Assembly (NCBI GenBank): GCA_900169235.1
Contig: FWCC01000399.1
Location: forward strand, 1-64,000
Direction of reading: 5' to 3'
DNA from: Zarea fungicola
Lineage: Eukaryota > Ascomycota > Sordariomycetes > Hypocreales > Cordycipitaceae
Length of the DNA stretch: 64,000 nt
The notes under the pieces were generated by a model. That model did not search any database and was not told where the DNA came from. It saw only the letters and a list, made by a program, of their open reading frames with translations. This document shows positions 10,948-62,385 of this stretch, piece after piece. The first letter of the stretch is position 1. Every line of letters begins with the position of its first letter. Position numbers and translations under genes: made by a program.

Positions 10948-13606
10948 TTATTTATTGTCAGTTGCATTGGCATTAACCATGGCAGCTGACAGTGTTTTCA
11001 TTATTTGAAAACGATCATAGATGGGCTGCTTATCAAGGTCAAGAACAGCAGTATAGGCATCTGCCCCAGCTTCCAAGAGCCATTGAACGACTTCCAGATA
11101 ACCACCTGCAGCAGCTCTGTGGAGCGCGGTAACTCCTGCATTAGAAGTAGCAGCAGCGTTAACGTCGGATCCAGCAATTAGTAGCTTCTCAACTACTTTA
11201 AGATGTCCGGCTCCAGCCGCGGCTCCGAGCGCAGTCACTCCTCCCACGACAAAAGTAGAAGCAGCAGCGTTGACATCGGCTCCAGCGGCTATTAGCTTCT
11301 CAACAACTTCGAAGTAACCGCCCTCGGCTGCTGCTTGGAGGGCGGTTCGTCCATGAAACATACTGGCATCGGCGTTAACATTAGCCCCAGCAGCCAGTAG
11401 CTTCTCAACGACTTTGATATGCCCATGTTTAGCTGCTCTTTGAAGCGCATTCCATTCTGTAGCATCAGCATTGGCGTCGGCTCCGGCTGCTAGCAATTTA
11501 TCGACCACGTTGAGAAAGCCACCTTCCGCTGCAATTTGAAGCACAGTATCAAATTCGTTCTTATAAGAAAAAGTAGTGGCAGCATTAATGTCAGCCCCTG
11601 CAGCTAGTAGCTTCTCAACTACTTCAAGATGGCCGCCACTAGCAGCTACGTGGAGCGCAGTCTGGCTCTTGTAGGGATTAGACGCAGCATGCACACCAGC
11701 TCCTAGCATTAGCAGCTTCCAAACAGGGTTGACAGAGTCCTCTATAGAGTAGTCGTCCTCTATAGAGTCCTCGTCCTCTATTAACACCTGGTAGTTTCCA
11801 TCAGACGTGCGATCAGCGTCAACGTCGGCCCCTGCCGCCAGCAGCACCTCGACTACGGCTACATGGCCAGCTTGGGCAGCATACCACAGAGACGTTCTGC
11901 CGGCAGTATCACGCTGATCTGGAACTTGTCCACGACTAAGTAGGCTACTAGTAGCCTCAACCAGTCCAAAGTAGGCTGCAAGATGTAGCCCTTGCAGTAT
12001 TGTAATATCTTGGATAGCGCCTTTGTAGCGATCCGTGGCCATGAGCACCTGAGTCGATGCTTCGACCTTTTCTTGACACTCTAGGAACCCCAAGTCCAGC
12101 TGTTGCCGTCTCACAGCGCTGTGAGCGTGATATCCCCAGTTGCGCGCAGCATACACATAAAGGGGATGCGATCCAATCCGCTCCTCAAAGTCCTGGTCCT
12201 CTGTGCACACTCCGCTCTCAAAGGCGCTGAATGAGAGGAATGCGATGCAAGTTGTCGCAATGGCATACTCCGCATCTGGAAACCATTTAACCTGTGTTTT
12301 CTCAAAGTATTCTTGCGTTGTATAGTGAGCCAACCGGATGAGATCACTTTCTTTATCCACAGTTACAAGGCCAGCACATACAGAGACCATGTCTTCTACT
12401 TGTGGCAGGTCGCCATGGTCCAGCTCAGATTTGCCGCTCTTCGTTCCAATTGCGTGCTGGAGTTCTACGGTGCTAAGTTGTCTCCTTGCGCAGGTTAACC
12501 ATAAAAGAACGTTCATTGCAAGTTTCCTGAAACCTGGCATCTGCCCGTTGATTCTTTCAAGGGTTTGATCGTAGGCGTCATGCAATGCTTCGGATGTTTT
12601 ATCGTCATTCAAGCCTTTCTGTTTGCTCTGGAGGGCATTCATTGCACTTTTGATATCGTTTCGTGTCATCTTATCGCTGAGAAAATTCATATAGATTTGT
12701 GCCAAGAGAAACCTATAAATGTTAGGGTCTGAACTACTGTTTCATTCTTCCAGGTGCATACATTCCATCGACGGCTTTTGATATTCCTACCGTAATCTCT
12801 TCTTGTAGCTGTGTGTCGTGTTGGACAAAAGATGGTAACTGTGATATATGGGCATCTAAATACCGTTCTACATCGGCAGCACTGGCCCGAATCTCCAGTG
12901 ATACACCTTTCGAGAAGCAATCCATAATATCTGAGATGGGCCTAGATGTCGCAAGAATGCTTGTTCTATGCTCTTTCTGAAGGCTGAAGAGCTCGGAAAG
13001 AAGTCTCGTCCGGCAGTCCTTCGACGCTTGGCATTCATCAAGCGCATCAACCACAATGAAGATCCTTGAGTACAAGGAGGCTGTAGACCCAAGGACTCTT
13101 GCGACTTCGTCGAGTGATGGACGCGTGCGCGTAGCCTTGTGCTTTTGGTAGAGCTCTCTGACGCTCTCTGGCACTGAGTTCTGGTTCTCGGCCAGTTGCT
13201 TCAACAGACTCGCCAGCAAGTCGTCGATGCGTTGCTCGTTTTGCCGCTGGAAGTTGCAGTAGATATATGCGAGACCAACCTTAGAGTCATTAAAAAATTT
13301 AGAACTGAGGTAGTCAATCACAATGGACGCCAAAATCGTCTTTCCAGCTCCTGGGATTCCTGCGCAAAAGAGCGTCTGCTTGTCCGTGGCCAGCCAAGTC
13401 TTGAATTCTTCGGAATCAAGAAGCCACTGCCCAGTTCCTTGTTGTCGTCTTGCGAGATAGTCGCTTTGCTGCAAACCGTAGTTAACTGGCGTAAGCCAGT
13501 CAAGACCTTCGAGGTCTCTATCGCTATCAGATTTTGCCTTTACATGTGTAACATCTCTTCTTATCAAGTCTACTTCGTTAAGGACTATATTTTCTGTTAG
13601 ATTCAT
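10948..13606 (-). CDS. NACHT-ankyrin part of a STAND/NLR-like protein
   Basis: Two exons, complement(10948..12712, 12762..13606), give 869 residues from the ATG at 13606. The intron (49 nt) has GTATGC, CCTAAC and ATAG signals. The N-terminal part contains the fungal linker [16 protein letters not shown], then a NACHT NTPase with Walker A (GIPGAGKT) and Walker B ([12 protein letters not shown]), followed by a winged-helix-like segment ([16 protein letters not shown]). About eight ankyrin repeats follow, several sharing [11 protein letters not shown] almost unchanged. Such proteins are thought to act as fungal receptors in heterokaryon incompatibility or defence. The frame continues upstream without shift into a nucleoside-phosphorylase-like domain, separated by one TGA (13625-13627) and six codons, so this is probably the C-terminal part of one larger protein. 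Confidence 0.85.
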
Positions 13607-13624
13607 GATGAGATTCTCGACAGT

Positions 13625-14740
13625 TCATCGCTGACCTTCGTTCAGAATGTCCCCTGCCGGGCGCTCCGCGTTAAGATCAGTTGCCTGTACATATTGGAGT
13701 AGCTCCTTTGCGAATGCAGCAGCTACAGCAGCCGCGTATGGTTGCCAGTATTTGTTTTTGTGCGAATCAGCGTAGTCGCAGATGCCTCGAATGACGATAC
13801 ATGGAAAGTTGTTCATCAGCCCCGCCGCTTCCATCTCGACGCAGAGAACGCCGCCGCCGAGATCATCGTTGAGCCTATCACGGAAAGCAGAGTCCTTGAT
13901 AATCTGGTTGCCTGATGCAATCACTCCATAGTGAACACGCATCTCTCGGGGCTTTCTAGTCACTTCTTTGGTCCTATCGCAAAATCGGCAGGTAGGTTCG
14001 TCTTCGCCTTCATCCTCATCGTCATCCTCAGTAACCTTGAAATCAGAGGGCCTCTGAGTAACACGCGCATAGTCTCGCTTAAATAGTACATCCGTAAGAG
14101 AGGAGGATTTTAGATATCTGGACGCGAGTTTTGGGTAGTTCTTGCCCAGATCATCCAGATACTCCTGCACCCTTGGCCCATACATTTCATGGGCTGTCTT
14201 CAATTTCGCCAGAGCCGTCCGGAGCGAGGCAGGCGGGTTGTTAAGCGCCCCCGTCCGCTCGAATTTCCCACCATCCTTTGCCTTACCGGAGTCCCATTGA
14301 ACGACGCCAGGATACTGGCCGGCTGGAGTGCTGACAACAATATCCCCAAGGCGGACCTTTGGTGGAATTCCTCCACCGATACCAACCATCAGAGCAAACC
14401 TTATAGACGGAAAGGTAGAGATCATCCAAGGTACAGTGCTTGCTGCGACGTCGGTGCCAGTTTCGCCTTCAGGCAGACAAGCTATGACAACTTTGTGTTT
14501 TCCGATAGACCCTAACGTATAGCAATTCGGGTCATTTGGTGGCTTCGGGAGATCGTCGTATTGATGATCGAGCATCGCTGTTGCAGCGGTTTGCTCAGTG
14601 GATAGCGCGCAGACCCATCCGACGGAGAAGTCGCTGTGCGCTGGGACTGTTGGGCCAACCTTGTGCTGTTTATCCGCCCTCGCTGTGTCGCCGTGTGCGC
14701 GATCTTCGTCGTTATCTGCTGCGCGAGATCGCTTCGACAT
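13625..14740 (-). CDS. PNP/UDP-phosphorylase-like N-terminal domain, ends at in-frame TGA
   Basis: This frame of 371 codons starts at MSKRSRAADNDED. An ATG seven codons upstream is also possible. It matches the phosphorylase-superfamily domain used as an effector or sensing module at the N-terminus of fungal NLRs: VGWVCALSTEQTAA, VGIGGGIPP, LGDIVVSTPAGQYPGVVQWD and the C-terminal CVEMEAAGLMNNFPCIVIRGICDYADSHKN. A short acidic insert (DDDEDEGEDE) with a Cys-rich CRFCDRTK lies in the middle. The domain ends in AGDILNE, the usual join to the NACHT linker, then GQR and TGA. The next 18 bases are open and lead straight into the NACHT part in the same frame. A 42-nt intron (GTCAGC...AACAG) would remove the stop in frame, but its donor is weak and its branch site too close to the acceptor. 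A nonsense mutation is the simpler reading. Confidence 0.82.
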   Translation of the reverse strand: MSKRSRAADNDEDRAHGDTARADKQHKVGPTVPAHSDFSVGWVCALSTEQTAATAMLDHQYDDLPKPPNDPNCYTLGSIGKHKVVIACLPEGETGTDVAASTVPWMISTFPSIRFALMVGIGGGIPPKVRLGDIVVSTPAGQYPGVVQWDSGKAKDGGKFERTGALNNPPASLRTALAKLKTAHEMYGPRVQEYLDDLGKNYPKLASRYLKSSSLTDVLFKRDYARVTQRPSDFKVTEDDDEDEGEDEPTCRFCDRTKEVTRKPREMRVHYGVIASGNQIIKDSAFRDRLNDDLGGGVLCVEMEAAGLMNNFPCIVIRGICDYADSHKNKYWQPYAAAVAAAFAKELLQYVQATDLNAERPAGDILNEGQR

Positions 14741-15271
14741 TATTGCATAGTTATACCTCAAACGCGGTTTTTATTGGTAGAGCAGAGCTTTTTTGATACG
14801 TGCGGTACGTAACAGGATGGAAGTTGGCCGAGAGAGGGTTTTACCTAGAGTGTAGCTGCTCAAGGAAGCGGACTACTAAGATTCAGCTGATATGCAGGCC
14901 TATGCTTGTCCAGCCAATCCTGAAACGTGTAGGTCAAAACGATGTCAATTGTGGCCAACCAGCACCATGCAATTACCGCCGGTTTGAGATACCATTTCAA
15001 TACCACTTTGTCGCCCGGTAAGCCAGTGAGAAAAGGCCGGGCAGCAAGACGACTGCAACTAAATTCTACTAAATTTCTTCAACGCGTGATGTCCACAACT
15101 AGACATCAGCCATGATATCTTGACTTAAAGTGAAATTCACAAGCTTTGGAGGCTCTAAAGATAATACTACAATGTCCAAGTATCTGTGCGATAGCCTTTT
15201 AAATCTAAGTTACTACCAAATGCGACGACAGGGAGTTGAAATGGTCGGAGCAAGGCAGTGCTTAAACTAGT

Positions 15272-46272: not shown

Positions 46273-47664
46273 CTAGACCGAATTGAGCAGAGCGATCAAG
46301 CCCTCACTCAAAGTCGGATGCGCAATAACTAGTGTAGAAATTTCCTTGTACGATATACCGAGCTTCATCGCCAATTGAATAACTGGAAGCAAATCTCCAG
46401 TGGAGAGACCAAGCGCTGTGAAGCCAAGAATTCGCTCCCCGTCTGCTTCAACCAGCACCTTGGCAAAGCCCCGAGTGTCTCCCTGGGTTCGGGTCCGCAG
46501 AAATGCCTTCATCGGCAATTTCCCAAGGCGATACTTGATCCCTTGCGCCTGCGCCTCGTGTTCCCGAAGGCCCACGTGCGCAAGCTCATGCGACGTGAAC
46601 AGGACAGACGGAACTTGACGATTTGTCACTCCTCCTTGTCTTGGCGAGCCAGTAAGGCTGGCTAATACAATACGAAAGTCATCAAAGCCGATGTGTGTAA
46701 AGTAAGGGCTCCCTGCGCAATCACCTACAGCATAAACGCCATTAACCGTAGTCTTGAGCTGTTCGTCGACCTTGACATGGCCAGCTTGAGTGAGCTCGAT
46801 ACCTGCCTCCTCTAGGCCAATGTTTTGCGTGTTTGGAATGCGGCCGGCAGCAGCCAGTAGATGGGATCCGGTAACAGTGAAACTCTTTTCGCCCGTTGTT
46901 ACAGACAGCTCAACGCCAGCGCCAGAAATGCCCGTCACGGAGCCTATTTTTGCAGAGGTAATGATTTCAACGCCTTCACCTGCAACAATGTCGACAAGTG
47001 CATCAACAATGTCACGATCTTCCTTTGCCAGGATTTGGTCGTGCTTCTCAATTACGGTTACCTTTGAGCCGAGTCTTTGATAGGCCTGGGCAAACTCCAT
47101 GCCGATATACCCGCCCCCAAGAATAACAAGATGCTCTGGTAGCTCCTTTAGATCGAGGAGTTCAACGTGGGTGAGTGGCTTTGACTCCAGCAATCCTGGG
47201 ATTCTAGAGTCCACAAATGCCCTTGATCCAGTGTTGATGACAATCGTATCCGCTGTGAGCCGACGCCCAGCCACTTCAATCACCTTGGGCCCGACAAATG
47301 TTCCCTCGCCAAAGATGACCTCTGACTTTGCGTTTTCAAAGTTTGTGATGTGCGTCTGCCTCAGTCCTTCGACCATGTCCGACTTGCGGCTCTCAACGGC
47401 GGACATGTTGGCTCGTACATCGGCCGCATTGGTCTGGAGGTTGACCCCAAAGGACGCTGCCTGGCGAATGTCATGTACCACGCTGGCCGAATGAATCACA
47501 TTCTTGGACGGCAAGCAGGCAATGTTGGGGCATGAGCCGCCGAGATACTTGCGCTCGATAACGGCGCACTTTTTGCCAAGCTTTCCGCCAAGCGTCCAGG
47601 CAATGTACTTCCCTGGCTCTCCACTGCCAAGAACAACACAGTCGTAATGCTCCGCTGTCGACAT
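46273..47664 (-). CDS. FAD-dependent pyridine nucleotide-disulfide oxidoreductase (mercuric-reductase/lipoamide-dehydrogenase-like)
   Basis: 463 residues from MSTAEHYDCVVLGSG. The same frame is open to an ATG at 47793, which would add 43 residues that could be a mitochondrial presequence. FAD-binding GSGEPGKYIAW is followed by the redox disulfide GGSCPNIACLPSK (C-x4-C). Next come the NAD(P)H-binding LVILGGGYIGMEFAQ, the second FAD motif GVYAVGDCAG, and the dimer-interface HPTLSEGL containing the His that completes the active site. All catalytic features are intact. It lacks the N-terminal heavy-metal domain and C-terminal Cys pair of true mercuric reductases, so the substrate is open. No neighbouring genes suggest a pathway. 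Confidence 0.9.
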   Translation of the reverse strand: MSTAEHYDCVVLGSGEPGKYIAWTLGGKLGKKCAVIERKYLGGSCPNIACLPSKNVIHSASVVHDIRQAASFGVNLQTNAADVRANMSAVESRKSDMVEGLRQTHITNFENAKSEVIFGEGTFVGPKVIEVAGRRLTADTIVINTGSRAFVDSRIPGLLESKPLTHVELLDLKELPEHLVILGGGYIGMEFAQAYQRLGSKVTVIEKHDQILAKEDRDIVDALVDIVAGEGVEIITSAKIGSVTGISGAGVELSVTTGEKSFTVTGSHLLAAAGRIPNTQNIGLEEAGIELTQAGHVKVDEQLKTTVNGVYAVGDCAGSPYFTHIGFDDFRIVLASLTGSPRQGGVTNRQVPSVLFTSHELAHVGLREHEAQAQGIKYRLGKLPMKAFLRTRTQGDTRGFAKVLVEADGERILGFTALGLSTGDLLPVIQLAMKLGISYKEISTLVIAHPTLSEGLIALLNSV

Positions 47665-49569
47665 GTTGAACTCGTAGACTCTGACCGTCGGATTTAATAG
47701 GCTCTTGTAGACCCTTGAAACAGTTCTCACTGGGGATATACAAGGCTTCGAAATTTCGTAGTTCTGTATGAGTCGGTACCAGGAAAGGTTCAAAAAGAGG
47801 CAGCCTACATCCGGTAATTCCTTTCATTAATGACCCCTCACGGTCTCATATAACGGCGTGTCACTCTTGCAGTTCAGCTTGGGAACCCTGAGAAGCCAAA
47901 GCCCCACCCGGACATTCAGCCCTGCCAAGACTCCGACGGTCCCGGGTATTCCTCCAACTCGTTTATTGGAGTCAGACTTTAGTGCGAGGCTAGCAAAGTT
48001 GGTCATCTTTCGTTACTAAATGCTCCTACGATTTGGGAAGCTAGGCTTTCCAACTGACATGTCACTTGTACTGCATCACCCCACATGCCGGCTCATGGGT
48101 GTTGAGGATTCTCGGACAATTCATCGTCTCCGATGTTGCCATGATGTTAGGATGATCGTAGTTTGGCTGTACTAGACAATGAGATGAGCACAACGTTGCA
48201 TTTTCAATGCAGCAGTTTGTCACTACAACCGCCACTAGGGAATCAACGGCTCCTGCAAATGCCTACTAATAGCCGAGAAGCGCAGCCCTTGTACGAGACA
48301 GCCAACAGCTTAGATAAAATTGCCGACCGAAGATATTTAAAACAAGAACTATAGTAAAAACATTGATTTCGCGTTCTAGGCCCATATTGAGTTGCAAGGT
48401 GGCCTATCAATCTTTAAGATACAGGCCGTCAAGGCCGACATCTTAAATATGACGGTACAATAAGCCGTGGCTTACTTTTCTACAGATGAAATATTTACGC
48501 TTGATGCATGGACACAATAAGTATCTCCTGGTCAAAACTAGCCCATAAAGTATAGCGAGCCCATGCATTCTAATCAGCCTCCATTTCAGGGCTAGATGAG
48601 GTTTGGCAAGTAATAAACACACACTCCCAGGAGAGCTCCAGAGGAGACTAGCCAACATCGGAGTCCACTTGCCTACTGATTACCTTCTTTAGGTTGGTCA
48701 GCGGAAAATTCCGTGAGGATGTGGTCTTGAAAAGTCTCACGACCAATGATCAGCCAAGGTTTGGGATCCCAGCTCATTCCAGCCGTTGGCAAAGACTCCA
48801 CCCCGGCTGCCCGAGTCATAAATAGCCGGTACTCCGTAAAACAAATGGGCCTCAAGCCACGTCCGTTTTGGAAATGAAATTGTTACGGTCCTGTATATTG
48901 AATTGCTAGTTTCGGCGCTTGTGTGTTTGAATAGCGTAAATCCGGCTTGGGGCCACCCTCAACGGAGCAACTCCGTTCCGTCGAATGTTGGTTCAGATGT
49001 AATACTTTTTCAGATTTAGGGAAAAAAAATTGTCATACCCTAAAATTAACCTTAAGGCTGAACTTAAACTGTAGTACCAGGATAGTATCCCTGTAGTGTT
49101 GTACAAGCCCCTTTAACTTCCACATATGCTTGGCGTTTCGTTCGACTGACACAGTTATTCCAGAGAGAGAGTCAATATTCTATTAGGAGCTTCTTTCTGT
49201 CAGCATGGGATCCATCTCCTTTGGCGGACCGTTGTTACAAGCTGAGAAACTAGCAAGCTTCAATGCAAGTATATCGTTGTCATGAACCGCTTGAGGCTGA
49301 GTACTTGCAGGCCAAGTCGAGCTCATTCTTACACGGAGTAAAAATAGAAGCCTGCGATTACAAAGCTAGAATAAGCTTACAGGTTGAGTTTGCCAGTCAA
49401 TGGCCTATGCGTTGAGAAAATAAGAACAGCGTCTTGAGAATTCTCCCAGCAGATTAGAATCTCACATAAATATCGTTCAAGATAACCTTATTTCTTCCAC
49501 TTTTTCCATCTTCAAATTCCCAACAATATTATTTGCATCATTAATAAAGAACTTTCTACCAATTTCACT
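47665..49569. other. Intergenic, no gene seen
   Basis: 1.9 kb. It begins with the possible presequence region of the oxidoreductase and ends with the promoter of a small secreted protein. I see no gene or known repeat between. Confidence 0.45.
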
Positions 49570-50057
49570 ATGCGCTTTTACATGCTCCTCGCGACTGCCT
49601 TGACGGCTGCTGCCCTTCCCAGCAGCCAGCTAGAGGACTCTAACAACCTCGAGGCGCGTGCTGCGTCGTGTACCTCTAGCAAAGGCGACCCGAACCGAGC
49701 AGATATTGAGGCTATAGTAAATGACCTGCAAAAAACCAACCCCGATGAGCAGGTAGCCTTGAACCGCCGCAAGCAGCTCACCTTTACGCTCGGCAGCTCG
49801 CGCATCTGTGTCGCCAACGACTTCATCTTTGAGAATACTCATGTGAAGCGCTCCGACATTGGTCGCGGCGCCCTCAAGGCGTTGAACCGCTGCTGCCGTG
49901 CAGGCTCTTGGTAAGCCGAAACCGTGTTTCGCTTTTCCGCTACCCTATTTGCTGACTGAGTACCTCTAGCCAAGGCACTGCCGAGACTATTTTTGGCGAC
50001 AGTGGGCTTAGCCTACGTCTGTTTATCGCTGATAGTGACTGGCCTTGCGACAAATAA
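49570..50057 (+). CDS. Small secreted protein, Ecp2/Hce2-like in layout
   Basis: Two exons (49570..49910, 49970..50057) give 142 residues. The 59-nt intron (GTAAGC, GCTGAC, CTAG) splits a Cys codon (TG|C). A signal peptide MRFYMLLATALTAAALPSS is followed by a mature chain with six Cys: ASCTSS, SRICVAND, NRCC, GSCQG and WPCDK. The order of helix, strand with central Cys, helix with paired Cys, and a terminal strand resembles Ecp2/Hce2-type fungal effectors, but the resemblance is weak. Without splicing the ORF ends right after GSW and loses three of the conserved-looking strands. It is probably an extracellular host- or competitor-directed protein; that role is inferred. Confidence 0.75.
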
Positions 50058-50409
50058 GCACCTGCCGGTCCGGCTTTAGATGTACATGTACCACATACAC
50101 ACCACTTTGCGTTCCAAGTCTGGAGAGTTTTGGTATCAAGGACACGGAATGAATTGGTTAAAAATTTAGTTTATGACCACTATGGGCGATAAATTATTCC
50201 TAGACGAGGGGTAGATTCAAATAGACTAGACTATCATCAAATGAGATCAAGCTCGCATGTTGAATGCAAGCGGTCGTTCAAACTTTACGCAGTTGTGCTC
50301 CAACGTATCACCCTCTTGTAAAAGTTTCTCTCAGCTCCTGTTTTATCCTGGTTAGGGAAGTGCCATTATAGATTCTGCGCTGGAAAAGACAAAGCCCAAC
50401 AGGCTATAT
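50058..50409. other. Convergent 3' intergenic region
   Basis: 350 bp AT-rich spacer between two secreted-protein genes. Nothing else is seen. Confidence 0.5.
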
Positions 50410-50907
50410 TCATTGACAGGATCTCTGGTAACGACAGCGTCCTCCGACATAGTAGCAATTGGGGCACTGGACAAAAGGGCCCCCGCAGTCCGCAACCCTG
50501 CCGCAGAACTGCCAGCAGCGGGACAGTCGTGCCTCAAGTCCACCCAAAACGGGCGTGGGAGCAGGTGAAATAGACGTGGAGCACAGCAAGGCTGAGGAAG
50601 ACGCCGACTCATCTCGGCTCAATAGTTCGACCGCATGCTGAGCTGCCCGTTCAAAGTATTCTTCGGCGTGCTCACTCGAGCCGAACAGGCCAGAGGCGGC
50701 CAGGACATCAGACGGGTCCTCGTAGACGTCAACCCTGACTTGGCCATTTTCGGGAAACATGTGGAGATACTGCGAACTTTGCACATCGGCCATGAAGGCG
50801 TCATACCGCTCAAGGTCATTGGCATGAATTGCAGAGCGTGGTGACAGTGCCATGACAAAAGTGGCCAAGAACACCACCGAGGCAATTAATGCGGTGAGAC
50901 GAGTCAT
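50410..50907 (-). CDS. Secreted protein with Cys-rich C-terminal module, 165 aa
   Basis: A single exon of 165 codons. A signal peptide (MTRLTALIASVVFLATFVMA) is followed by a Cys-free region of about 85 residues (DLERYDAFMADVQSSQYLHM and an EHAEEYFERAAQHAVELL helix), then a 40-residue end with seven Cys: RCWQFCGRVADCGGPFVQC, PNCYYVGGRC and SC. An eighth Cys lies just before it (ALLCST). The module could be a small disulfide-rich domain released by processing. A TATA-like CTATAAAAGG lies about 75 bases upstream of the ATG on the minus strand (near 50980-50990). I know no family. Confidence 0.72.
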   Translation of the reverse strand: MTRLTALIASVVFLATFVMALSPRSAIHANDLERYDAFMADVQSSQYLHMFPENGQVRVDVYEDPSDVLAASGLFGSSEHAEEYFERAAQHAVELLSRDESASSSALLCSTSISPAPTPVLGGLEARLSRCWQFCGRVADCGGPFVQCPNCYYVGGRCRYQRSCQ

Positions 50908-50980
50908 TATGAAGCTGTGTTGTTTAATTTAGAAGTTTTTTGATGTTGCAAAAGTTCTGTTCAACGACGGGTTTGTAGGC

Positions 50981-50990
50981 CCTTTTATAG
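50981..50990 (-). promoter_or_regulatory. TATA box of the 165-aa secreted protein gene
   Basis: Minus-strand CTATAAAAGG about 75 bases upstream of the start codon at 50907. Confidence 0.5.
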
Positions 50991-51771
50991 ATCCAACTCT
51001 ACCTTGGCTTCATCACCGGGTTGCAACCACAAGGAGCTGATTGATGGACGAGGAGGCCTTGATGCCCAGTACCGGGAGAATCGGCAAAATATTTCATGGA
51101 AAGTTCGCATAAACGAAGGGGCCATGAAGTTCTTGAGGCAAATCTTAATAGATGTTCTAGTTCTAGACCTGCAAATTACTGTACGCCTGCGTAGCACGCA
51201 GCAGGTGGTCAGTCACGGCAGACAGTTGACACCCAAAAGGGTCGGAAAGCGCGAGGCTAGAGTCAAAGCAGCAGTATAATATACTTCAGCTATGCAGAGC
51301 TGGCTGTTTGGGTGTGGCTGAATCTCACCCGTCGCGCTTGTTCTAATTGGCTTATTCGGACATTTTCCATTCCCTAAGGAGCTGATCGGTGTTTACCCTT
51401 CGATTTTGTCGATTGGACCCTTGCTCCACACTCTACCAAACAGTTTGGAGCCGATGTAACCGTAATGTGGCTGGCTGGATTTCAAGTAGCGCAGATATTT
51501 GAGGCTGCAGAGATAGTAGACGTCCAACACCGACAGTTTAGGGTTTAGTATAAGAGAGTACGAGCCTTCTACAGGTGTAAGTTTGTTGCGGTGCGATCGC
51601 AGAAATTATCGCAGGCAGCTAAAATGCATCTTACCATTGGCCGGCTTTCCTCCATCTTTTGATTTGTTTTCTAGTCTGTCGTCACCCTCTAAATTCAGTC
51701 CCCTGCTCCATAGCTGAGAAATATGGGCATCGCTCTTACATCTGCCGGGTAAGTACATCGCGGATCCTGGA

Positions 51772-51845
51772 TGTTGTGACGGCTGACTCGGGTCAAGCAG
51801 CATATCCAGCATATCTAGCGATTCCTGACTTCTACTACCAGAGAC
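51772..51845 (+). mobile_element. LTR fragment, copy D
   Basis: Starts TGTTGTGACGGCTGACTCGG and follows the LTR consensus for about 70 bases, then diverges. It lies 140 bp from copy E, in the opposite orientation. It is a truncated copy with no detectable 3' end. Confidence 0.65.
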
Positions 51846-51986
51846 AGTTTCTTAGGATTTTATATGTTTAAGTAGGACTTTAAAGATAATACTATAAATA
51901 ATAGCAGTTTATAATGGCCCTTAGGCGCTCTAGTTCTAGGTGTACTTCCCATCTCTATCAAAATTATCCATTAATAAGTCTCATCC

Positions 51987-52270
51987 TGTTGGTATATCAC
52001 AGGTAGCACGCGGCACAGTAATAACAGAGGCGTCTCTCAGTAGGTATGCTGATTGTAACAAGTTGTGATTGATCTAAAAGTCTAGATACGGATAAAGGAG
52101 GAATTCCTCTTCTATATACCGGCAGTCAGGAACAGGAAAAGCAAACACAAACAACCAAGATTCCTCTTTCCTCCCCAGCTGCCGTGATGCTTCGTATTGA
52201 CGGAAGCCTGCTGCGGCAGGAGTCAGGCTTTATCAGAAGAGCTGCTTGACCTGACTCCGCAGTCACAATA
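51987..52270 (-). mobile_element. Solo LTR, copy E, TSD CATCC, abuts a peptide precursor gene
   Basis: 284 bp on the minus strand. The second base of the LTR is changed (TATTGTGACT instead of TGTTGTGACT). CATCC flanks it exactly (51982-51986 and 52271-52275). The right-hand CATCC is two bases beyond the stop codon of the tandem-repeat peptide gene at 52278. Removing the LTR leaves the native 3' end, so the stop codon was not created by the insertion. Confidence 0.82.
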
Positions 52271-52277
52271 CATCCCT

Positions 52278-52526
52278 CTACTTCCAGCTCTGAGCGTTCT
52301 CAATAGGGCGGTCAGTTTCACGCTTCCAGCTCTGAGCGTTCTCAATATGGCGGTCAGTTTCGCGCTTCCAGCTCTGAGCGTTCTCAATAGGCCGTTCAGT
52401 CTCGCGCTTCCAGCTCTGAGCGTTCTCAATGGGTCTAGCCTCTGGTTCAGATATCATGGCGACAGGCACAGGCGTAGCGGAGCATGCTCCCATAAGCAAT
52501 AAAAGAGCAGCACTAGAAAGCTTCAT
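52278..52526 (-). CDS. Kex2-type tandem-repeat secreted peptide precursor
   Basis: A single exon of 82 codons. Residues 1-18 are a signal peptide (MKLSSAALLLLMGACSAT), followed by a short leader (PVPVAMISEPEA). Four copies of R[P/H]IENAQSWK follow, joined by R-E-T-[D/E], so each unit ends in a Lys-Arg site and the period is 14 residues. The last copy ends at WK and a TAG, lacking the final Arg. Kex2 cleavage plus carboxypeptidase trimming would release several near-identical peptides of about 12 residues. This is the layout of fungal alpha-type pheromone precursors, Kex2-processed repeat proteins and dikaritin RiPP precursors. The peptide has none of the Trp-Cys features of Sordariomycete alpha pheromones. 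No UstYa-like gene is visible in the window. The in-frame extension to 52814 is leader sequence upstream of the TATA box. Confidence 0.82.
   Translation of the reverse strand: MKLSSAALLLLMGACSATPVPVAMISEPEARPIENAQSWKRETERPIENAQSWKRETDRHIENAQSWKRETDRPIENAQSWK
52281..52436 (-). repeat. 42-bp coding tandem repeat
   Basis: About 3.7 units of 42 bp within the peptide precursor gene. Units differ by only a few bases; one change turns Pro into His in the third copy. The near-identity indicates recent expansion or gene conversion. Confidence 0.85.
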
Positions 52527-52642
52527 CTTCAGGATAAGGTAAGAATAATGGTGGAATGTTGGTTTGGTAGGTGATGCAATATCGATCTGTAAAGTGTTTG
52601 TTGCCCAGAGCAAGAGTATATTCGCCTGGGTGGGTTGAGGGC

Positions 52643-52652
52643 TATTTATATA
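52643..52652 (-). promoter_or_regulatory. TATA box of the repeat-peptide gene
   Basis: Minus-strand TATATAAATA about 120 bases upstream of the ATG at 52526, supporting that ATG over the one at 52814. Confidence 0.55.
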
Positions 52653-53761
52653 ACAAAGTCTCCTCTGTTCAGTTTCAGCGTTGTCGACAGTCGAAGGTAA
52701 ATCTTCACATCCTAGCTCGTATGTCAGACGACTCCAGCTCGTTGAAGCCGTCCGTGCACTACGCACAAGAAGCCCGTGGTTCTCATTTCGGTCCCCATAT
52801 TGACAGGTTAGCAATGTTCACCCACTACGGAGTTAATCCGAACAATGTGCATTAATGTTCCGCATCAGGTTCTTCGTAAAAGGTCGACGATGCTACTTAA
52901 TTGCCCTGACACTCTAAAGTCGGCGGGGTCTTCTAGATACCTCAGTGGCGCTCTGTTTTAGGTTCTTATAAGCACCTAGCTATAATACACATCATTTAAA
53001 CCGTTCTCTAGTGTTAACCATAACATCACATTAGCCATGGAACTATTCTCTTGTTGCGATCAAATACACGATTTTCTACTTTTAGACTTGAGTGCGTCAA
53101 GGTTCTCAAGACCCATCTAAACCACAGAATAAGCTGTCAAATAGGTCTTGGCTTGACCTACTGTCAGCAACCTGAGCGGGAACATTGGTCGGAAAAGCCG
53201 ACTTTGGCCTATATGATTCCGGGTGCATAGACCCTCCAGCTCCATCTCCGAGCATATTTTAACCATGCATAATCCGCAACTATCTTGTTACAGCTACATT
53301 ATATAGTGGGTATCACATATAGTGCTTATTTTTGCAATTTAACACGTCAAGTTACATATACTAGTTCATCAAATGCTAATATTATAGCAAACAGTTCAAT
53401 GACGAAAGGACTAGACACATATATGAGCCATCAGTTCACTTAATATGGGATTACTTTCTATAATTTAGAATATATTTCTTGTCAAGACAAGTGACGTCTT
53501 AGTGCTTATTGCCAAGATGTCGTGTCTTAATCGCAATACATCCGTCGCAGCTTGAAAGCGTAATTGTCCCTGATATTACTATACCAGGTGCTTACAACGA
53601 GGCTTTGAAGTGAGTTACACACACTAGGTCTCCTTCGGGCCGCCTCAGCCCCCTCCCTGCATCGTAGTGCTACGTTTGTAACAATTAATATCCAAGTTAG
53701 CTATTTCCGAGTGCTTTTTCCCTATGGACTGAAGTAAGAGATTAGCTAATACTGTCCCTGC
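52653..53761. other. Intergenic, no gene seen
   Basis: AT-rich stretch between the repeat-peptide promoter and LTR copy F. No gene or known element is recognised. Confidence 0.45.
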
Positions 53762-54054
53762 TGTTGTGACTAGTGGAATCAATTGCCAAGCAACGTATCC
53801 AAGGAAGCCTGACGACTGGCGCAGACTTCCGTAGGTTAACATCGGATACGAGGAAAATTAGGTCATGACGGCAGCTGTAGATAGTTTTCCAGTCTGCTGT
53901 TTCTTTTTTTCGCCCGATTTGGAATTATTGCATGTAGAGCATGAATTCCTCCCTGGGGTGTAGGTTCCTTTCGAAGATCAATGCCCAACAGCGTACCTTC
54001 TGAGAGACGCCCTCTTAGGGCCACACCTTATAACTACTTATAATCATACCAATA
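53762..54054 (+). mobile_element. Solo LTR, copy F, diverged
   Basis: Starts TGTTGTGACTAG and ends CATACCAATA. It keeps the CTGAGAGACGCCCTCT block near its 3' end. Flanks (CCTGC and CCTTT) no longer form a clear duplication. It is the most diverged full-length copy. Confidence 0.65.
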
Positions 54055-54593
54055 CCTTTGGATGTCTTATTAATAGCATGCTGTTCGTATAGGAATTGCT
54101 AGAGAATTTCTATACAGTACTCGCTTCTTTTCAACTTATTTTGATAGTCTACCTCTTCGGAAGTAATAGAGCAAGCAAGGGAGCGACTGTCAGACCTCTT
54201 ATATGGTTTACCTGCAAAGGTGTAGGCTCCGCCCAGGCTGACCCTTGTTGAGTCGATAACCACACCCCGCGCAACAATCAAAGAGTAAAATCCGCACATG
54301 GATACTAGAGCGCTGTGTGTTGTCAGACATATGCGCGCCACAAAAATGGTGCTGCGGCAACGTCCGATGTCACACTCAGTCCTATCTTATACTTGTAAAC
54401 TCTGAGAGACAATGGAGAATGGCACAGGAAACGCCAATTAAACCAAACTCATGCTGGTAGCCAGGCGGTGCGTCTATCACTTCAGTACTGGTAAAATAAC
54501 GAAATTAATAGAGCTCACACTATATTTCGTCAATGTACTAGTCCAGTCATCCCTATTCCATAGTAATGATAATTTCAACTATACCACTGCTAC

Positions 54594-54904
54594 TGTTGGT
54601 ACAATCACAAGTATTTACGAGGCACAGTACTGAAAGGAGCGTCTCTCAGTAGGTATGCTGTTGTAACTTGATGATGTATTCAAAACCTAGCTATAGCTGG
54701 GGGAGTAATTCCTCCCCATATATAGGAATAAGAACATACAAAGCAAACAATAAATAGGCACGATATCTCTTTCCTCCTTAGCTGCCGTGATGATCCCGCA
54801 TCCAGGGCAGGCTGCCGTCAATCAACGCCTTGACTGACGGAAGCCTGCAGCAGAAGTAAGGCTTCGCTGGATATTCTGTTTGACCTGAGTCAGCAGCCAC
54901 AACA
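54594..54904 (-). mobile_element. Solo LTR, copy G, TSD GCTAC, abuts the KP4-like gene
   Basis: 311 bp on the minus strand, TGTTGTGGCTGC...CCAACA in its own orientation, flanked by GCTAC on both sides (54589-54593 and 54905-54909). It lies 24 bases downstream of the KP4-like stop codon, in the same orientation as that gene. Confidence 0.85.
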
Positions 54905-54928
54905 GCTACATCCCAATTCAGTTGCCAC

Positions 54929-55315
54929 TTAGACTTGACAGACGGAAACATAGTTAACAGTAAGCTCGCCATTGTTGACGTTGTTTCCAGAATCCGTCGG
55001 GATGCTACCGCATTTGCGGCATCCATGGTCATACAGGGCATTAAGATACCACCAAGTGTTCCATTGCGAGAATGAACGGCCGCCAGTCTTTTGATAGAAT
55101 GCCGCCAAGCAGCTTCCATCACCAACATTAACAGCAGCAATTTGCTGACCCTCAATAAAGGTCGCTGTGGCGGGGAGGTTCTTGACCCTCTCGCGAATGA
55201 TGGCGAGGGCATTGCCAGGACCAAACCCACACCCGCTGCTGCCTTGGCAGTTTATGCCAAGTGCGGCTACTCCCATGGGGGAACTGGCAATGAGTGATAC
55301 ATTTGCAGCCTTCAT
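54929..55315 (-). CDS. KP4-like secreted protein (killer-toxin family)
   Basis: 128 codons from the ATG at 55315. The frame is open to 55396, but the upstream part lacks a signal sequence. The start, MKAANVSLIASSPMGVAALG, is a weak signal peptide; a missed upstream exon is possible. The mature part begins GINCQGSSGC and continues with GQQIAAV, CLAAFYQKTGG, HGCRKCGSIP and GELTVNYVSVC, the conserved blocks of the fungal KP4-like family, with six Cys at positions 23, 29, 69, 99, 102 and 126. KP4 was first known from a virus of a smut fungus; cellular homologues are scattered among ascomycetes and inhibit growth of fungi or plants by affecting calcium channels. No frameshift or stop interrupts this copy. 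Confidence 0.82.
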   Translation of the reverse strand: MKAANVSLIASSPMGVAALGINCQGSSGCGFGPGNALAIIRERVKNLPATATFIEGQQIAAVNVGDGSCLAAFYQKTGGRSFSQWNTWWYLNALYDHGCRKCGSIPTDSGNNVNNGELTVNYVSVCQV

Positions 55316-56089
55316 CTTGATGACGCTGTGTTTGCTGGGATCGTCTGTATTAGACTTTCTATTAGTGCACATGGATAGGTTCATAGAGAAATGCATTATT
55401 CAGTTCAAGGTACTTACAGGATTCTTCAAATGCGTATATTATTTAAATGCCCTTCAACTTGGATAAATATAGAATAAATTGTGGTGGTTTCTATCATTTC
55501 AACTTACATAGTTATCAAGCAGCTTCTTATAGTCTCTTTGATACCACAACGTGAACACGTTTCTTGGCAGGAATTCCTGATAGCCGGGGATGCTTGTACG
55601 CCAAGCATCTGAGATAGCGGTGAAATACTCTACGAGAAACATTCTGTGAGTTTGCCAAGACTTGGGCACATTGAGAAATCTTTCGCAAGTCCTTTAATGA
55701 GAGCCCCGATTTCGTGTTAGATGTCATAGCTGCAAGAACCGGCCGGGGTAGTGCAGTATTTAGCAATATTGCGGGTATTTCCATACAAATAACTATTACC
55801 AGAAACTAAAATATTATTTGAGTATACTTTACTTGTACATCTACCATGTAATGAGGCCATTGCTCTGTATTTGTCGATGAATTGGTCAACTGAAGTACAT
55901 TACCTTCCTTACGTTAACTAGATTAATGCTAACGGATCCATCATGACAGCGTTATGGAAAGCCAGCGTGCATAATCTGTTGAACCAATCTGCAAAACTCG
56001 CCGCAAAATAGAAGAAATAGACCAGCGATGAGGGTCCATACAAGAGTTAAGTTTATGCACTAACCAGGGTGTCAGTCGGGCCGCTACAC
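55316..56089. other. Intergenic, no gene seen
   Basis: AT-rich spacer upstream of the KP4-like gene. A minus-strand frame at 55527-55784 (85 codons) has no recognised family and is not called. Confidence 0.45.
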
Positions 56090-56131
56090 TTGAGCCAGGA
56101 TTTTTGAGCCAGGATATTTGAGCCAGGATAT
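56090..56131 (+). repeat. 14-bp tandem repeat, three units
   Basis: Unit TTGAGCCAGGATAT at 56090, 56104 and 56118; the first unit has one mismatch near its end. Confidence 0.85.
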
Positions 56132-57109
56132 TAGACCAAGTCTCCCCTTTGGCCCCAACTGATAACAATCAGCTGAGGAAAAATGGCATCCAGCCATTAT
56201 CTTTGCATATGCCATATCTGCCCCACCATTGTTCGATTTCAAGTTAATGTCGGCTTACGAGCTATAGCGTTACGATTTATGAAGTGACTGTTCCAGATAT
56301 GCCGCCTTGATGGAGATTGTCAGCAGCTCGAGTGGATATTGGCACTAGCGGGATGCAGCTAGAGTCACTTAAGCCCTCATACAGGTAGTTATTAGTCAAT
56401 TAAACACGTGTTGCTATTGCAATGGATGCCAGCAGGTTTCATAAGAGTTCTTCTAGAACTTAGGTCGCCAGCAATCACCCGACGGTTTAAGTCAGGCCGC
56501 ATATTGTTGGCCTAGTGGTAAATTTCTAGAATGCGCCAAGAACATTAGTTGGTTAAGCTACGTCATTACTGGTCAAAACCTACGCCTTTCGATCTGAGGT
56601 AAAGCTAAAGTTTATCTTAGCAGGTGTAGAGGAAATTAGCCAGGCGGCAGAGCGGGGAGAAAGCTTGGGCGCATAAGCACCGATACTCGAAGAGCCGGAT
56701 TGGGTAGCTATGCTAAATATAAGGAGAGTGCTGTGGTCGATTGAGTAAACAACCAGTATGAATGAAGGTCACTTTAAAATTTCTGCCTCGACAGGGGCTG
56801 GATCTCTGCGCAGGCTGCAGGGCCAAGACATACCCAGCAAACCAGAGCGTCCACCACACCCTCAATTGCAGCCGTACGCCTCGAGCGGCGAGGGACCAGG
56901 GGTCGAACCCGATAAGCAACTCCGGGCCGTAGCCAGCGCTCCTACTAGTGCAGACGGTTTGACAGACTATTAGTGCGAACCGCGCTTTGCACTATTAGTC
57001 TGTGGAGTGATAGTCCCGTTCAGGGGTTTTCGGCTTAACCGGCGGTTCGGTTTACCCGTTGCAAACCGCACCTACGTTCCGGTTCCAAGATCTTAAACAG
57101 CCATTACAC
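56132..57109. other. Intergenic, contains an inverted repeat
   Basis: No supported gene. An open frame at 56758-56973 (71 codons, MNEGHFKISASTGAGSLRR) ends at the inverted repeat 56963-57002, just before a CAGGGGTTTTCGG.TTAACC string resembling a hAT terminus; together these suggest a small transposon relic. Confidence 0.35.
56963..57002. repeat. Imperfect palindrome, 14-bp arms
   Basis: CAGACTATTAGTGC at 56963-56976 and GCACTATTAGTCTG at 56989-57002 are reverse complements at 13 of 14 positions, separated by 12 bases. It could form a hairpin or mark a transposon junction. Confidence 0.75.
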
Positions 57110-57399
57110 TGTTAGTGCGCACCCTGACCTGGGTTGCCGTCAGCCCCCACCACGCTCAACCTGCTGCAGAGCCCATAAATACATTTGACCCCGTGATAGC
57201 CCTCTCGAGGAATCTTCTTGTGTTTGATGTTTGCTATGTTTGCTGTGTTTGCTTTTGACCGCCTGACTTCCTGTATATAGGGGAGGAATTCATCCTACAT
57301 CTGTAGACAGCTTCAATCCAACCAAGTTACTATTGCGTTCCTACCGAGAGACGCCCCTCTCAGTACTGTGCATAGTAACTCCTTGTGCTCGTACCAACA
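57110..57399 (+). mobile_element. Solo LTR, copy H, divergent subfamily
   Basis: Ends in the family's CCGAGAGACGCCCCTCTCAG block and CTCGTACCAACA, and has the TGTATATAGG TATA region near 57273-57282. Its 5' 150 bases (TGTTAGTGCGCACCCTGACC) differ from the other copies, so the left boundary is approximate and no duplication was found. Confidence 0.55.
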
Positions 57400-57531
57400 C
57401 ATGAACCTACGGCTTGACTAAACACGATTGAACAGTGTAGGAACTGGAAATCGGTTTACCATTAATCTGACTATTTCTATTATTTAAGCATAAGAGCCAT
57501 GAACTACACACTCTTAATCTGATGGCAACAT

Positions 57532-58525
57532 TTACGCTGCTGCCACTTTGGCTTCAGAATCCTCTCCAGTGGCTGAATGTACCCGATCGGAGAGCAAAAG
57601 ACCAGGATGGCCGACACACAGAGCACATACAGCCAGCACAACAAGTCTAACGCACGGATTAGCAAGACAGTTTGAAATTGTTGTCCGGTTAGTTACATAC
57701 ACTCCTTCCAGTCCAATGAAAAGACCTTGATTTGTGATTACTGTCGAATTTTTATAACCCTGGCTCAGCTCGTAGCATCGGTATGCGCAGCGGCCCAGGA
57801 TAAAAACAGTCGCAATAGTTACGCAGCTGAAAAACAAGCGTAGCTTTCCGTTTGAGCCATCGTTTGGGCTCGTTGCCAGGTATCGAATGAGAAAGTCGAC
57901 AAACAATGTGAAGAAAACCAACAGAGCCAGGACTTGCAAGCCAAGCCCTACTAGAGCTACAATGACACCATTGCTGCTTGATCCGGAACTTGAAGCCGAT
58001 AGTGCACCACCAACAGCCTGGAAGATGAGGCAAATTATATCGGTCGGCAGAAATACCCAATAGAAGAGCTTCGGTGGGAAACGTGACAGGCTGGGGGCAG
58101 AGTGATTGATCCTGCTACGAATTAGCGATCAAAGACATTCAGAATTGGCCGTCTCCAACATACACCCCGGACAGAGTAAAGTATATGGCGGCAGTAAAGA
58201 ACACAGGCGCCGTCGTGATGAGCACGATCTGAATCATGAACCCGGTAAATGACCAAGGGTTGTTATGCAGCACAAGGCGACCTGCATAGCCAGCTATTTC
58301 AACAAAACAACCGACAATGACAGAGGCAGCGAACCCGACCGTCTTCCAGCGTACGCCCAGATACGCATGAATTAGCGCTAGAAGCCCAAAAATGGCAATA
58401 AATACGGAGTTGGCAGGTATTGATGGCTGATATTGATACACGCTCCACTCGATAGGGCACAGCTCCAGGGTACAGTTTGCTTTCTTTCCAAACGTGATGA
58501 AATCCGCTCTGTTTGGATGCGACAT
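57532..58525 (-). CDS. RTA1-like seven-TM membrane protein
   Basis: Three exons, complement(57532..57646, 57701..58111, 58164..58525), give 295 residues with consistent phase. Introns are 54 and 52 nt, with GTATGT donors. About seven hydrophobic segments are visible. The family pattern is present: FVEIAGYAGRLVLHNNPW, FMIQIVLITTAPVFFTAAIYFTLSGV, LPTDIICLIFQAVGGAL, ILGRCAYRCYELSQGY and CVGHPG near the end. RTA1/RTM1/Lsb6-type proteins of yeast relate to lipid translocation and toxin or drug tolerance. The C-terminal tail is short and polar. Skipping the 54-nt intron removal would give an in-frame insert lacking hydrophobicity, so the splice is preferred. Confidence 0.87.
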
Positions 58526-60383
58526 GGTGGGCGATGGAGTGGCAGAAGAAAATATTGGAATGTGATGACGAACTTTAATTGCGGTTAGAAGTGGTCTACA
58601 TTTGCATTCATTTCAAGGTTGGGCTCTCTGACTCTTTTATCCCGAATTGCATACAAGCTTTTTATTGATTATCAAGCTGAGCGCATCTTATTTGGGCTGA
58701 GTACGTCGTTGTCTCTGCCTGCCAGTGTGGAGAATAAATAAGGCATTTTGGTGGTGGCTGCTGTCCTCGTCACTCCATCCATCCATCTTTTGCTTTGGAA
58801 TTAAAAGCCAAATTATCCCATGTGCCACACGATGCGACGGCTTGACTCGGGACACGGTATTGCCGGTGTCAGGGCGAAGATCTAAAATCCCTGTCATGTA
58901 CTCCGTATCGTCTGCGGCATTACAAGTTCCCAGGCTCTATTAATTAGACACACTTTTCGCAGAGTATTATCACTGTCCCCAATTTCAAGTACAGATAAGA
59001 TTTGAAATTTTAAGAAATAAAACAATAAAATTGTTGAACATTCATAGGTAAGATTATTTAGGATTTCTTGCAGGTCTCCATCTATTTTGATTAGTATTCA
59101 TACACTGTCGACAAATGAAGTCCAGGGACAGACCAAGTTGCCGCTTCGAGTCGTTGACGTTGGTTATCATTTAGTCAATGTCCGCCAATAAGTGTGCACA
59201 GCCCTGCAGAGCGGAAGCGGCTTACCTAGACCCCGCAAGCGGACAATTTAGCCATCGGGGCGGAAATAAACTTGGCTGCTCCTCAAAGACCGACTGAATC
59301 GCCGTCCATTTTTCCGACCCTGGCGCAGCACGGGGCTAAGAAGATGACCTAATCAATACATTATGATGGTAAATGTAGTTAGGGTTAGCATCTACTGAAT
59401 TCCAACAACTTATTGCTGGTGGTGCGTTACGTGGACGACTACCCCAGCATGTCAGCGTCACGCCGATCGCTTTATCGCATCCGAAGCCTGGATTGAGAGG
59501 ATAGACATTTAAATGGGAGCATCCAGCACGGGATATCCGCCTACGCCTAGTCTATCGGAAGCGTATTCCCGCAACTACTATGATAGTATTCCTAGCCTCT
59601 CCCAATGCAGATTACCAGTCTGAGAGGGCACTGTCAATAGCTACCCTGCATCGCTACCTCGATCATGTTCCAAGCAGAAGTAGGGAGAATAATCATGGAC
59701 TGGGCAGCTTACTTGCTACAATTTCTATTTTGAGATCCATGCCATTCAGCACGTATTTCTCTAGACATAGAGAAACGAAACTGACCATACTAAGACCTTT
59801 AACTCTCTCGGAAATATCCCCGTCGCAACTAGAGCCGAAAATCCGCTCACATCGTCATCTACAACTGAAGAAAACGCCTGACAGGTGTTAAAATTTTCAA
59901 AACTGAAGCAACTATTACAAATGGGGAGACTGGGTTACTAACACCGCCCTAAACTACATCGCGTAAGTGGATGCATGTAGCATCAGCTGGAGAGCCTTGA
60001 TTACTTACTACCTAACTGCATGCAATCTGAATCTAGCTACCAAGTAATTTTGGTTCGAGAGAACAATCTCGCACTACGTTGCACGTATTGAAGGGTCTTT
60101 TCTCATTGATGGTCCGGGTGTATCTTGGTTCAAATTACTATCAAATGATAGAGAGGACTGCCTCCTCATATTCTATGGAACAGGCAGTAAAAAGGAAACG
60201 CAGCAACTGTCGCGACCGCTAGATTCACATCCACGCCAGGCTGCCGCGGCAGTAACGGCATGGGTGGCACTGGAACTAAACATCAGCAGCACATGGCATT
60301 TCTTCCTTCTTTTAAAATAAAACTCAATGAAGAGAATTAAATGTTTATAAACTAACTAAAGCACGTGATGATGATCGTAAAAT
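58526..60383. other. Intergenic, no gene seen
   Basis: 1.86-kb AT-rich spacer. An open frame at 59580-59891 (103 codons) has mixed codon use and no recognised family. Confidence 0.45.
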
Positions 60384-60882
60384 CTAAGACACGTTGCATT
60401 TGCAGTGGTTTATTGCCTCGCAAATGAGTTCCAGGTCCCACGAGGATATATCAGTACAACCACGGTCAGTAGATGGACAAGTAATGATACCAAAGGTGCT
60501 ACATCTACAGCAATGGCTGCACACAGAGTTGGTAATATCGGTAGCGGTGTCTTTGAATGGAAAGCACGCCAGGTGATACTGGGGCCGACGTGACCGGAAA
60601 GGCGCGCAATCGCCATTCATATCTGTAGGCGTTGGAAGACCTCCAAACTGCGAATTCCAGGTCAATACTAGTTGAGAAACAAAATGTAGCACATGTATGC
60701 TGGGCCATAAAACAGGCAGCGGGACCTACATAGATTGTTCCAGCGCTTTGCCGCTTGTAAAGGGGGTTTGGGGACGTATCACGTCCAGCAATATCACCTT
60801 GCGCACCATTGCTGGTTGCTGGTGCAGCGGAAACGATAGCAGGCATGCTAAAGCATGAGGCAGCCAAAGAGGAAAGACGCAT
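60384..60882 (-). CDS. Secreted cysteine-rich protein, spliced model
   Basis: Proposed exons complement(60384..60647, 60730..60882) give 138 residues. A signal peptide (MRLSSLAASCFSMPAIVSAAP) precedes a pro-region ending in PLYKRQ, a likely Kex2 site. The Cys-rich part is in the other frame and reads NGDCAP, LACFPF, SVCSHCCRCS, ITCPSTDRGC, ICEAINHCKC (11 Cys). The two frames are joined by an 82-nt intron with GTAGGT donor, TTGACC branch-like site and CGCAG acceptor, phase 0. Shorter introns are possible. Without splicing the first ORF runs on to an unrelated end. A TTATATAA box lies about 110 bases upstream. The alternative is a frameshifted pseudogene. Confidence 0.58.
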
Positions 60883-61767
60883 AGTTCAAGCAATGAGAAT
60901 AATAGGAGCTGGAAGAAGGCTGAGGATAACTATCACAATATCATATGTGAATGGAAGTCAGGTGGTACATGTCTTTGGATTTGGCGCATGAGTTATATAA
61001 AGGTGTAAAGGAGGATTCTAGACCTTGAATTTGAAACTATGCGGAGCTTGGAATTTTCCAGCCCGCTGGCGAAGCTGCCGTGCTAACCGAAGCAAAGTTC
61101 ATCCCAAAAGGTCGCGTATGGATGTCTTTGAAGGTTTCAACATGATGTGGAGTCGAACGGCAGCCAATGATTCCCAATAATACGCCATTGGGCTGACAAG
61201 CCACTTGAATAAGCTTAGAAAGCCATCCTGAGCTATTGTGTATTGCACGACTCAACTGCGGTCAACTTGTTCGGTTGAGTAAACTGGTGTAGTGGTCGCA
61301 TTTTACGATATGGGAAAGGTAATAGATTAATAATCAGCAGGTCCATTTGTCCGGCATCTGAGCCGACGTGATTCAACTGGCAAGTCAGATAGACTTAGCT
61401 ACTACGGTAACAGCATAGCCGCCGTCGTGGCTTTCGCTTACTGTCAGATCATTCCTAGAGCAGTGGGGCATAAAAATGCTTCATTTAGTTAGTTCCACAA
61501 ACTTACAAGTTGTGCAACTGCGGCGAAAGATTTCTTTGCGTCCGCCAGCACTGAATTTGTCCGCACAGAGTAATCCAAAATTCCGTATTGAGTCCACAAA
61601 TTGCACAAAGATCTATGAATACATATATATACTAGATGCGTTCTCTGTGCCAAAGAAGAGTTGGCCCCCTAACCTCCACTCCGAGTCAACTTTCAAGGTG
61701 CTCCAGTCCAACGACACCTTCCGTCCCGTTATAGGATTTTTTTTCCTCCAACTTTTCTTTCTTTAAA
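60883..61767. other. Divergent intergenic region
   Basis: 885 bp between two divergently transcribed secreted-protein genes, holding both promoters. No other feature is seen. Confidence 0.5.
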
Positions 61768-62385
61768 ATGTATTTTCTCCGTCTTCTTACAATCTTGCCC
61801 CTGGTCAACGCTGCTCTGGTTGGTGGCCTCACCTTGCCTGCTGAAGCACAGGAAGGCCTCGGTATCCATCTATGGAATGACGATGGCAACGAGATGTACA
61901 TCCACGAGTCCCAATTTGAGCAGTACAACATCACTGTGCAGCCGGGTATTGCTGATCCTCCCCCAACGGCGACAATCACAGCACCCGCGGCCACAGGCAC
62001 TGCTGGGTCCCTCGCGCAGCGTGGCCTTCCTGGCGGAGACTCCATTACATGCCTGCGCAATACGCCGGTTTTTGTACCCGAGCTTCACGATGGGGTGATT
62101 TACTTTGCGGACAACCTTGGTTGCGGCACCACCTACCTTACAAACCACTATGCTGACTTCAAGTATGTTGCATTGATTCGATGGCAAGGCTCCACTGTCC
62201 TGTATACCTGCAACTACAGTGGCGCGGAGAGGATTTGGTCTGGTCCGGGTTTGGTTGGCTACATCAATCAGGTCTTTAACTGGTGTAATCAGCAGGGCGT
62301 TGCTGCTTGGTACTTTGATGACTATCGAAAGGTTTCTTGGGGCTATACTAACAGGAATAATGGCTATTGTGGACCAGCGCAGTGA
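61768..62385 (+). CDS. Secreted protein of unknown family, 205 aa
   Basis: A single exon of 205 codons. Signal peptide MYFLRLLTILPLVNAALVGG; a linker rich in Pro/Thr/Ala (about residues 60-82, PGIADPPPTATITAPAATG) follows a short acidic region; the C-terminal 115 residues look like a compact domain with five Cys (SITCLRN, NLGCGTTY, LYTCNYSG, FNWCNQ, NGYCGPAQ) and many aromatic residues (WYFDDYRKVSWGYTN). I do not recognise the fold. The GLAQRG-like AQRGLPGG site before the domain may be a processing point. It lies at the end of the run of secreted proteins that begins at 49.5 kb. Confidence 0.75.
   Translation: MYFLRLLTILPLVNAALVGGLTLPAEAQEGLGIHLWNDDGNEMYIHESQFEQYNITVQPGIADPPPTATITAPAATGTAGSLAQRGLPGGDSITCLRNTPVFVPELHDGVIYFADNLGCGTTYLTNHYADFKYVALIRWQGSTVLYTCNYSGAERIWSGPGLVGYINQVFNWCNQQGVAAWYFDDYRKVSWGYTNRNNGYCGPAQ

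Follow-up and report, generated by a model that had tools for sequence, protein, structure and literature searches.

Does the small open reading frame at 52278..52526 of the window (the whole stretch of DNA analysed here, 64,000 nucleotides in length) encode a precursor from which repeated peptides would be excised and secreted and, if so, would these peptides be linear products, cyclised ones or pheromones? Such a layout is common among fungal genes and, judged from its sequence, the precursor is best read as a genuine Kex2-processed repeat protein (KEP) with a new core; we put the probability that it is a KEP releasing linear peptides at roughly 80%. The gene and its parts are the following:

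52278..52526, minus strand: gene for a KEP-like precursor of 82 aa in a single exon, with a homolog match over all 82 residues
52526-52524 and 52280-52278, minus strand: precursor ATG and TAG stop, respectively
52476..52526, minus strand: predicted signal peptide, residues 1-17, from hydropathy, with presumed cleavage after Ala17
52437..52475, minus strand: N-terminal propiece TPVPVAMISEPEA, residues 18-30
52281..52436, minus strand: four units, residues 31-82, RPIENAQSWKR / ETERPIENAQSWKR / ETDRHIENAQSWKR / ETDRPIENAQSWK
52642-52652, minus strand: TATA box TATATAAATAG, 116 bases upstream of the ATG, position and distance counted by eye

The coordinates agree exactly with those proposed in the preliminary description (82 aa plus the TAG), to which the minus strand can now be added, and the frame is indeed single and clean, being open from the ATG through the TAG; the TATA box that had been claimed is likewise present. 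Hydropathy, the sole measure applied to the signal peptide, peaks at 2.5 at the precursor N-terminus (window of 9). The propiece opens with three X-Pro/X-Ala dipeptides both here (TP-VP-VA) and in a homolog from Zarea (VP-AP-FA, that is, VPAPFA), and a Ste13-type dipeptidyl aminopeptidase might trim it.

Blocks of IENAQSWK occupy residues 33-40, 47-54, 61-68 and 75-82, in agreement with the earlier claim of four near-identical units, and Lys-Arg (KR) pairs at residues 40-41, 54-55 and 68-69 mark the three unit junctions. The last unit ends in W-K-stop and the first has no KR on its N-terminal side; the accompanying claim that each unit is bounded by Lys-Arg holds on both sides for units 2 and 3 and fails for units 1 and 4. 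Cysteine is absent from residues 18-82 and tyrosine from the whole precursor. At the DNA level, Tandem Repeats Finder reports the array at 52281-52430, with a period of 42 bases, 3.6 copies and 94% matches. All four copies have the same 24-base core encoding IENAQSWK, down to the silent sites, whereas the spacer codons differ among copies through silent as well as amino-acid changes, and units with a variable spacer but a core that does not differ by a single base are evidence in favour of a KEP. In a home-made Kex2-repeat screen, which demands at least three similar fragments of at least 10 residues after cutting at dibasic sites, just one of the 627 stop-to-stop frames of at least 50 aa in the window passed, namely this ORF, the fragments counted being units 2, 3 and 4, the last of them C-terminal. 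No frame passed in 30 third-order Markov windows; since this null ignores tandem duplication, the conservation of the frame in the homolog is the stronger argument for a gene.

That homolog, Zarea fungicola NQ176_g2726 (P0002), a database prediction annotated without a name, was the only protein besides the precursor itself to be returned at E values up to 1 when about 5.8 billion proteins were searched. The search, in which 383 candidates were scored, finds annotated proteins of similar length that have 5-residue words in common with the query, and distant or unannotated relatives could escape it. With a two-sequence profile, nothing was added at E values up to 10 (1,489 candidates), Pfam gave no family at E ≤ 0.01 for either protein, and a protein search of the whole genome for the IENAQSWK-type core yielded a single match, the gene itself. 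Six words from the IENAQSW- and IEDAQTW-type cores had no match in the searchable paper texts, and none of the paper titles listed in further literature searches concerns this protein; supplementary tables of the KEP surveys may include the Zarea protein or close kin. The statement that the core resembles none known stands in the protein, profile, Pfam and literature searches, with the exception of this one annotated, unnamed homolog.

NQ176_g2726 aligns with the precursor without gaps over its full length, with 58 of 82 residues identical (71%; 13/17 in the signal-like region, 8/13 in the propiece and 37/52 in the units). It keeps the 82 aa, the four units, the three KR, the W before each KR and the W-K-stop, but its core reads IEDAQ[S/T]W in place of IENAQSW and its spacer DTG in place of ET[E/D]. 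Loss of the frame in close relatives, which the preliminary description had suggested looking for, was not seen in NQ176_g2726: the frame is kept, including the start, the signal-like region and the stop. One neighbouring gene serves as a yardstick of divergence:

46276-47661, minus strand: pyridine nucleotide-disulphide oxidoreductase gene, about 5 kb from the KEP, with the Zarea homolog NQ176_g1501 (96%)

Measured against this one gene, the precursor has diverged far more (71% vs 96% identity to Zarea). Taken together, these two genes place the host near Zarea fungicola (Hypocreales, Cordycipitaceae). NQ176_g1501 and NQ176_g2726 reside on different Zarea contigs (41,703 vs 28,664 bases), and synteny with Zarea is therefore not shown.

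How does the precursor compare with the published definitions of KEPs? Umemura and colleagues ask for at least three tandem repeats of at least 8 residues between KR, KK, RK or RR (PMC7329392); by our home-made screen, cutting at KR leaves four repeat-bearing fragments, with units 2 and 3 alone carrying KR on both sides. Le Marquer and colleagues ask that the repeats make up at least 15% of the protein (PMC6339444), and here the units span residues 31-82 of 82. The precursor shares with KEPs a compact length of 82 aa and four nearly identical units, each at least 8 residues long and set off from the next by KR, and its N-terminus is signal-like by hydropathy; what sets it apart is the core R[P/H]IENAQSW, which does not figure among the motifs given in the section of PMC6339444 on conserved peptides. 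The same genome also holds the protease that a KEP needs: there is one P-domain match, and its locus also encodes, in frame with it, an S8 peptidase domain, a predicted domain pair that marks a Kex2-type protease. Layout, a homolog with the same layout and this protease together lend good support to the Kex2-processed repeat reading put forward in the preliminary description. Against it may be set the single homolog, the presence of KR on both sides in units 2 and 3 only, and a helix model that is also compatible with an uncut helical protein.

If the precursor is a KEP, it would enter the secretory pathway via its signal peptide and be cleaved by Kex2 after each Lys-Arg in the Golgi, whereupon a Kex1-type carboxypeptidase would trim the C-terminal Lys and Arg, which on the last unit would amount to just a single Lys. 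The predicted secreted products are three linear 12-residue peptides, ETERPIENAQSW, ETDRHIENAQSW and ETDRPIENAQSW, all sharing R[P/H]IENAQSW, and, as a fourth product, a longer N-terminal form that would end in RPIENAQSW. The likeliest use of these peptides, albeit a weakly supported one, would be to act outside the cell, on other cells or on the environment, unmodified or little modified.

KEP-derived peptides are widespread in fungi, mostly without known function, and linear, minimally modified ones have been detected in other fungi (PMC9769878); KEPs have been set apart from ribosomally synthesized, modified peptides (RiPPs) as unmodified peptides (PMC7099791). An unmatched core is ordinary for a KEP, given that 2,560 of the 7,878 KEPs in the Umemura survey had no homolog (PMC7329392). 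Coprinopsis KEPs have been secreted from Pichia pastoris, and kep knockouts in Coprinopsis cinerea had no detectable phenotype (PMC9769878), which counsels caution against strong functional claims. What the locus offers is a compact gene, its layout kept in one close homolog, from which a short list of exact predicted peptide masses follows; it adds one further core type to the KEPs and leaves the overall picture of the class unchanged.

The precursor might instead belong to a dikaritin-like cyclised RiPP whose UstYa modifying enzymes are encoded elsewhere, a reading that we regard as improbable. Dikaritin precursors (ustiloxin, phomopsin, asperipin) share with ours the repeats, the KR sites and, as predicted here, the signal; UstYa is matched many times in the genome (by 55 stretches at E ≤ 0.001), and DUF3328 genes go along, mostly or in part, with three KEP types in which Cordyceps and Beauveria are represented (PMC7329392). 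Nor is the Trp an argument against a RiPP, as W occurs in 20.5% of KEPs that have DUF3328 genes nearby vs 24.5% of those that do not (PMC7329392). However, none of the 55 matches lies on the precursor's contig (C317, 223,527 bases); in the Umemura survey, 22% of KEP genes have a DUF3328 gene among the 15 nearest genes, at a mean distance of 3.09 genes (PMC7329392). The precursor also differs from those of dikaritins in having no Tyr, and its units have no Cys; Tyr is usual, although not universal, in KEPs with DUF3328 neighbours, being found in 65.6% of their units (PMC7329392). The preliminary description had raised the RiPP possibility and proposed a genome search for UstYa/DUF3328 genes; that search, with no match at E ≤ 0.001 along the 223.5-kb contig, and the missing Tyr do not bear the suggestion out.

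Comparison of the units between the two species brings up another thought. Cores of units 2-4 are identical at 8/8 positions within the window species and at 8/8 within Zarea, but at 6/8 between the species, a likeness within species that would be expected under homogenisation by conversion or unequal exchange; with two species compared, this is an indication and no test of selection. Unit 1 is partly contrary, sharing 11/14 residues with unit 1 of Zarea and 9 or 10 of 14 with its own sister units, while unit 1 of Zarea shares 8/14 with Zarea units 2-4 and retains Ser where these carry Thr. That the gene encodes a fast-changing, clade-specific extracellular signal of the Zarea lineage, its units homogenised per species so that each species has its own core (IENAQSW vs mostly IEDAQTW), and that it possibly substitutes for the canonical alpha pheromone in self/non-self or mating-like recognition, seems to us quite improbable.

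That the precursor is outright a lineage-specific mating or mating-like pheromone that has replaced the canonical alpha pheromone we hold to be very improbable. The precursors of alpha pheromones in filamentous fungi have the same architecture, with repeats, KR, C-terminal Trp and a signal, which is predicted here, the genome encodes an STE2-family receptor (on contig C175), and three DNA patterns find no credible canonical alpha-pheromone core in it. The alpha-pheromone core of Hypocreales is of the type WCxxxGxPCW. The strict pattern had no match in the whole genome (reversed-pattern control, 0), and the two looser patterns had four (reversed control, 3) and seven (reversed control, 1), corresponding to 10 distinct places, L007 and L012 being one place. 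In eight of these 10 the core contains a stop, and the other two, L006 and L015, have frames of 44 and 30 aa in which the core is not repeated. A variant core or an assembly gap would escape these patterns, for which the reversed patterns were the sole controls. As for the precursor itself, an alpha pheromone is not supported: there is no cysteine pair, with residues 18-82 devoid of Cys, and the residues after each KR, ET here and DT in Zarea, lack the X-Ala/X-Pro signature of Ste13. Both the signature and a core with two Cys and a PCW end have been described for alpha pheromones (PMC6339444).

Very improbable, too, is the reading that the small repeat protein is secreted and functions without being cut, for instance in the cell wall, with the KR sites incidental. 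In its favour, AlphaFold, run on a two-row alignment, predicts one helix across the repeats (residues 32-81, mean pLDDT 68.4), but a helix modelled from two sequences is too thin for support; moreover, the homolog keeps all three KR while adjacent residues have changed. Finally, a non-coding 42-base tandem array that is open by accident is extremely improbable. In its favour, the period is divisible by three, which leaves other frames of the array open too, but the four others of at least 30 aa carry 0 or 1 dibasic sites each and the homolog conserves frame, start, signal-like region and stop.

Near the KEP gene lie a KP4-like gene and several small ORFs with signal-like starts:

54929-55399, minus strand: KP4-like protein adjoining the KEP (54932-55399 matching PF09044, E 6.4e-29)
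49570-49911, plus strand: small ORF, signal-like start (by eye), no Pfam match
50413-50907, minus strand: small ORF, signal-like start (by eye), no Pfam match
61765-62382, plus strand: small ORF, signal-like start (by eye), no Pfam match

The region around the KEP, 49486-62385, is possibly a stretch of secreted-protein genes, and the flanking KP4-like gene and small ORFs imply no shared function with the KEP. KP4 matches are found in 36 stretches of the genome, 35 of them over the family cut-off (stretches and not gene counts), and the family looks greatly expanded. Among the 120 matches listed, the oxidoreductase is closest to that of Zarea, at 96%, and the next best reaches 72%. Most of these matches are nameless; the nearest other named ones listed are from Coniochaeta and Pleurostoma, with no other Cordycipitaceae, and a patchy distribution or transfer of this gene is possible. 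Farther away, at 10948-14770 on the minus strand, ankyrin-repeat and NACHT-like frames follow a nucleosidase-like frame in an arrangement that, by eye, we take to resemble fungal NLR-type genes.

Two smaller observations concern the precursor gene itself. In the protein database, an identical protein is entered with 1,424 bases as its longest contig, against 223,527 for the contig of the window, and is perhaps a second record. Just 3' of the stop, at 52190-52280 on the minus strand, there is a strong inverted repeat, GGAGTCAGG ... CCTGACTCC; the RNA of this segment folds at -34.2 kcal/mol (z -2.68; 1/200 shuffles equally good), and the repeat is possibly a hairpin of the 3' UTR.
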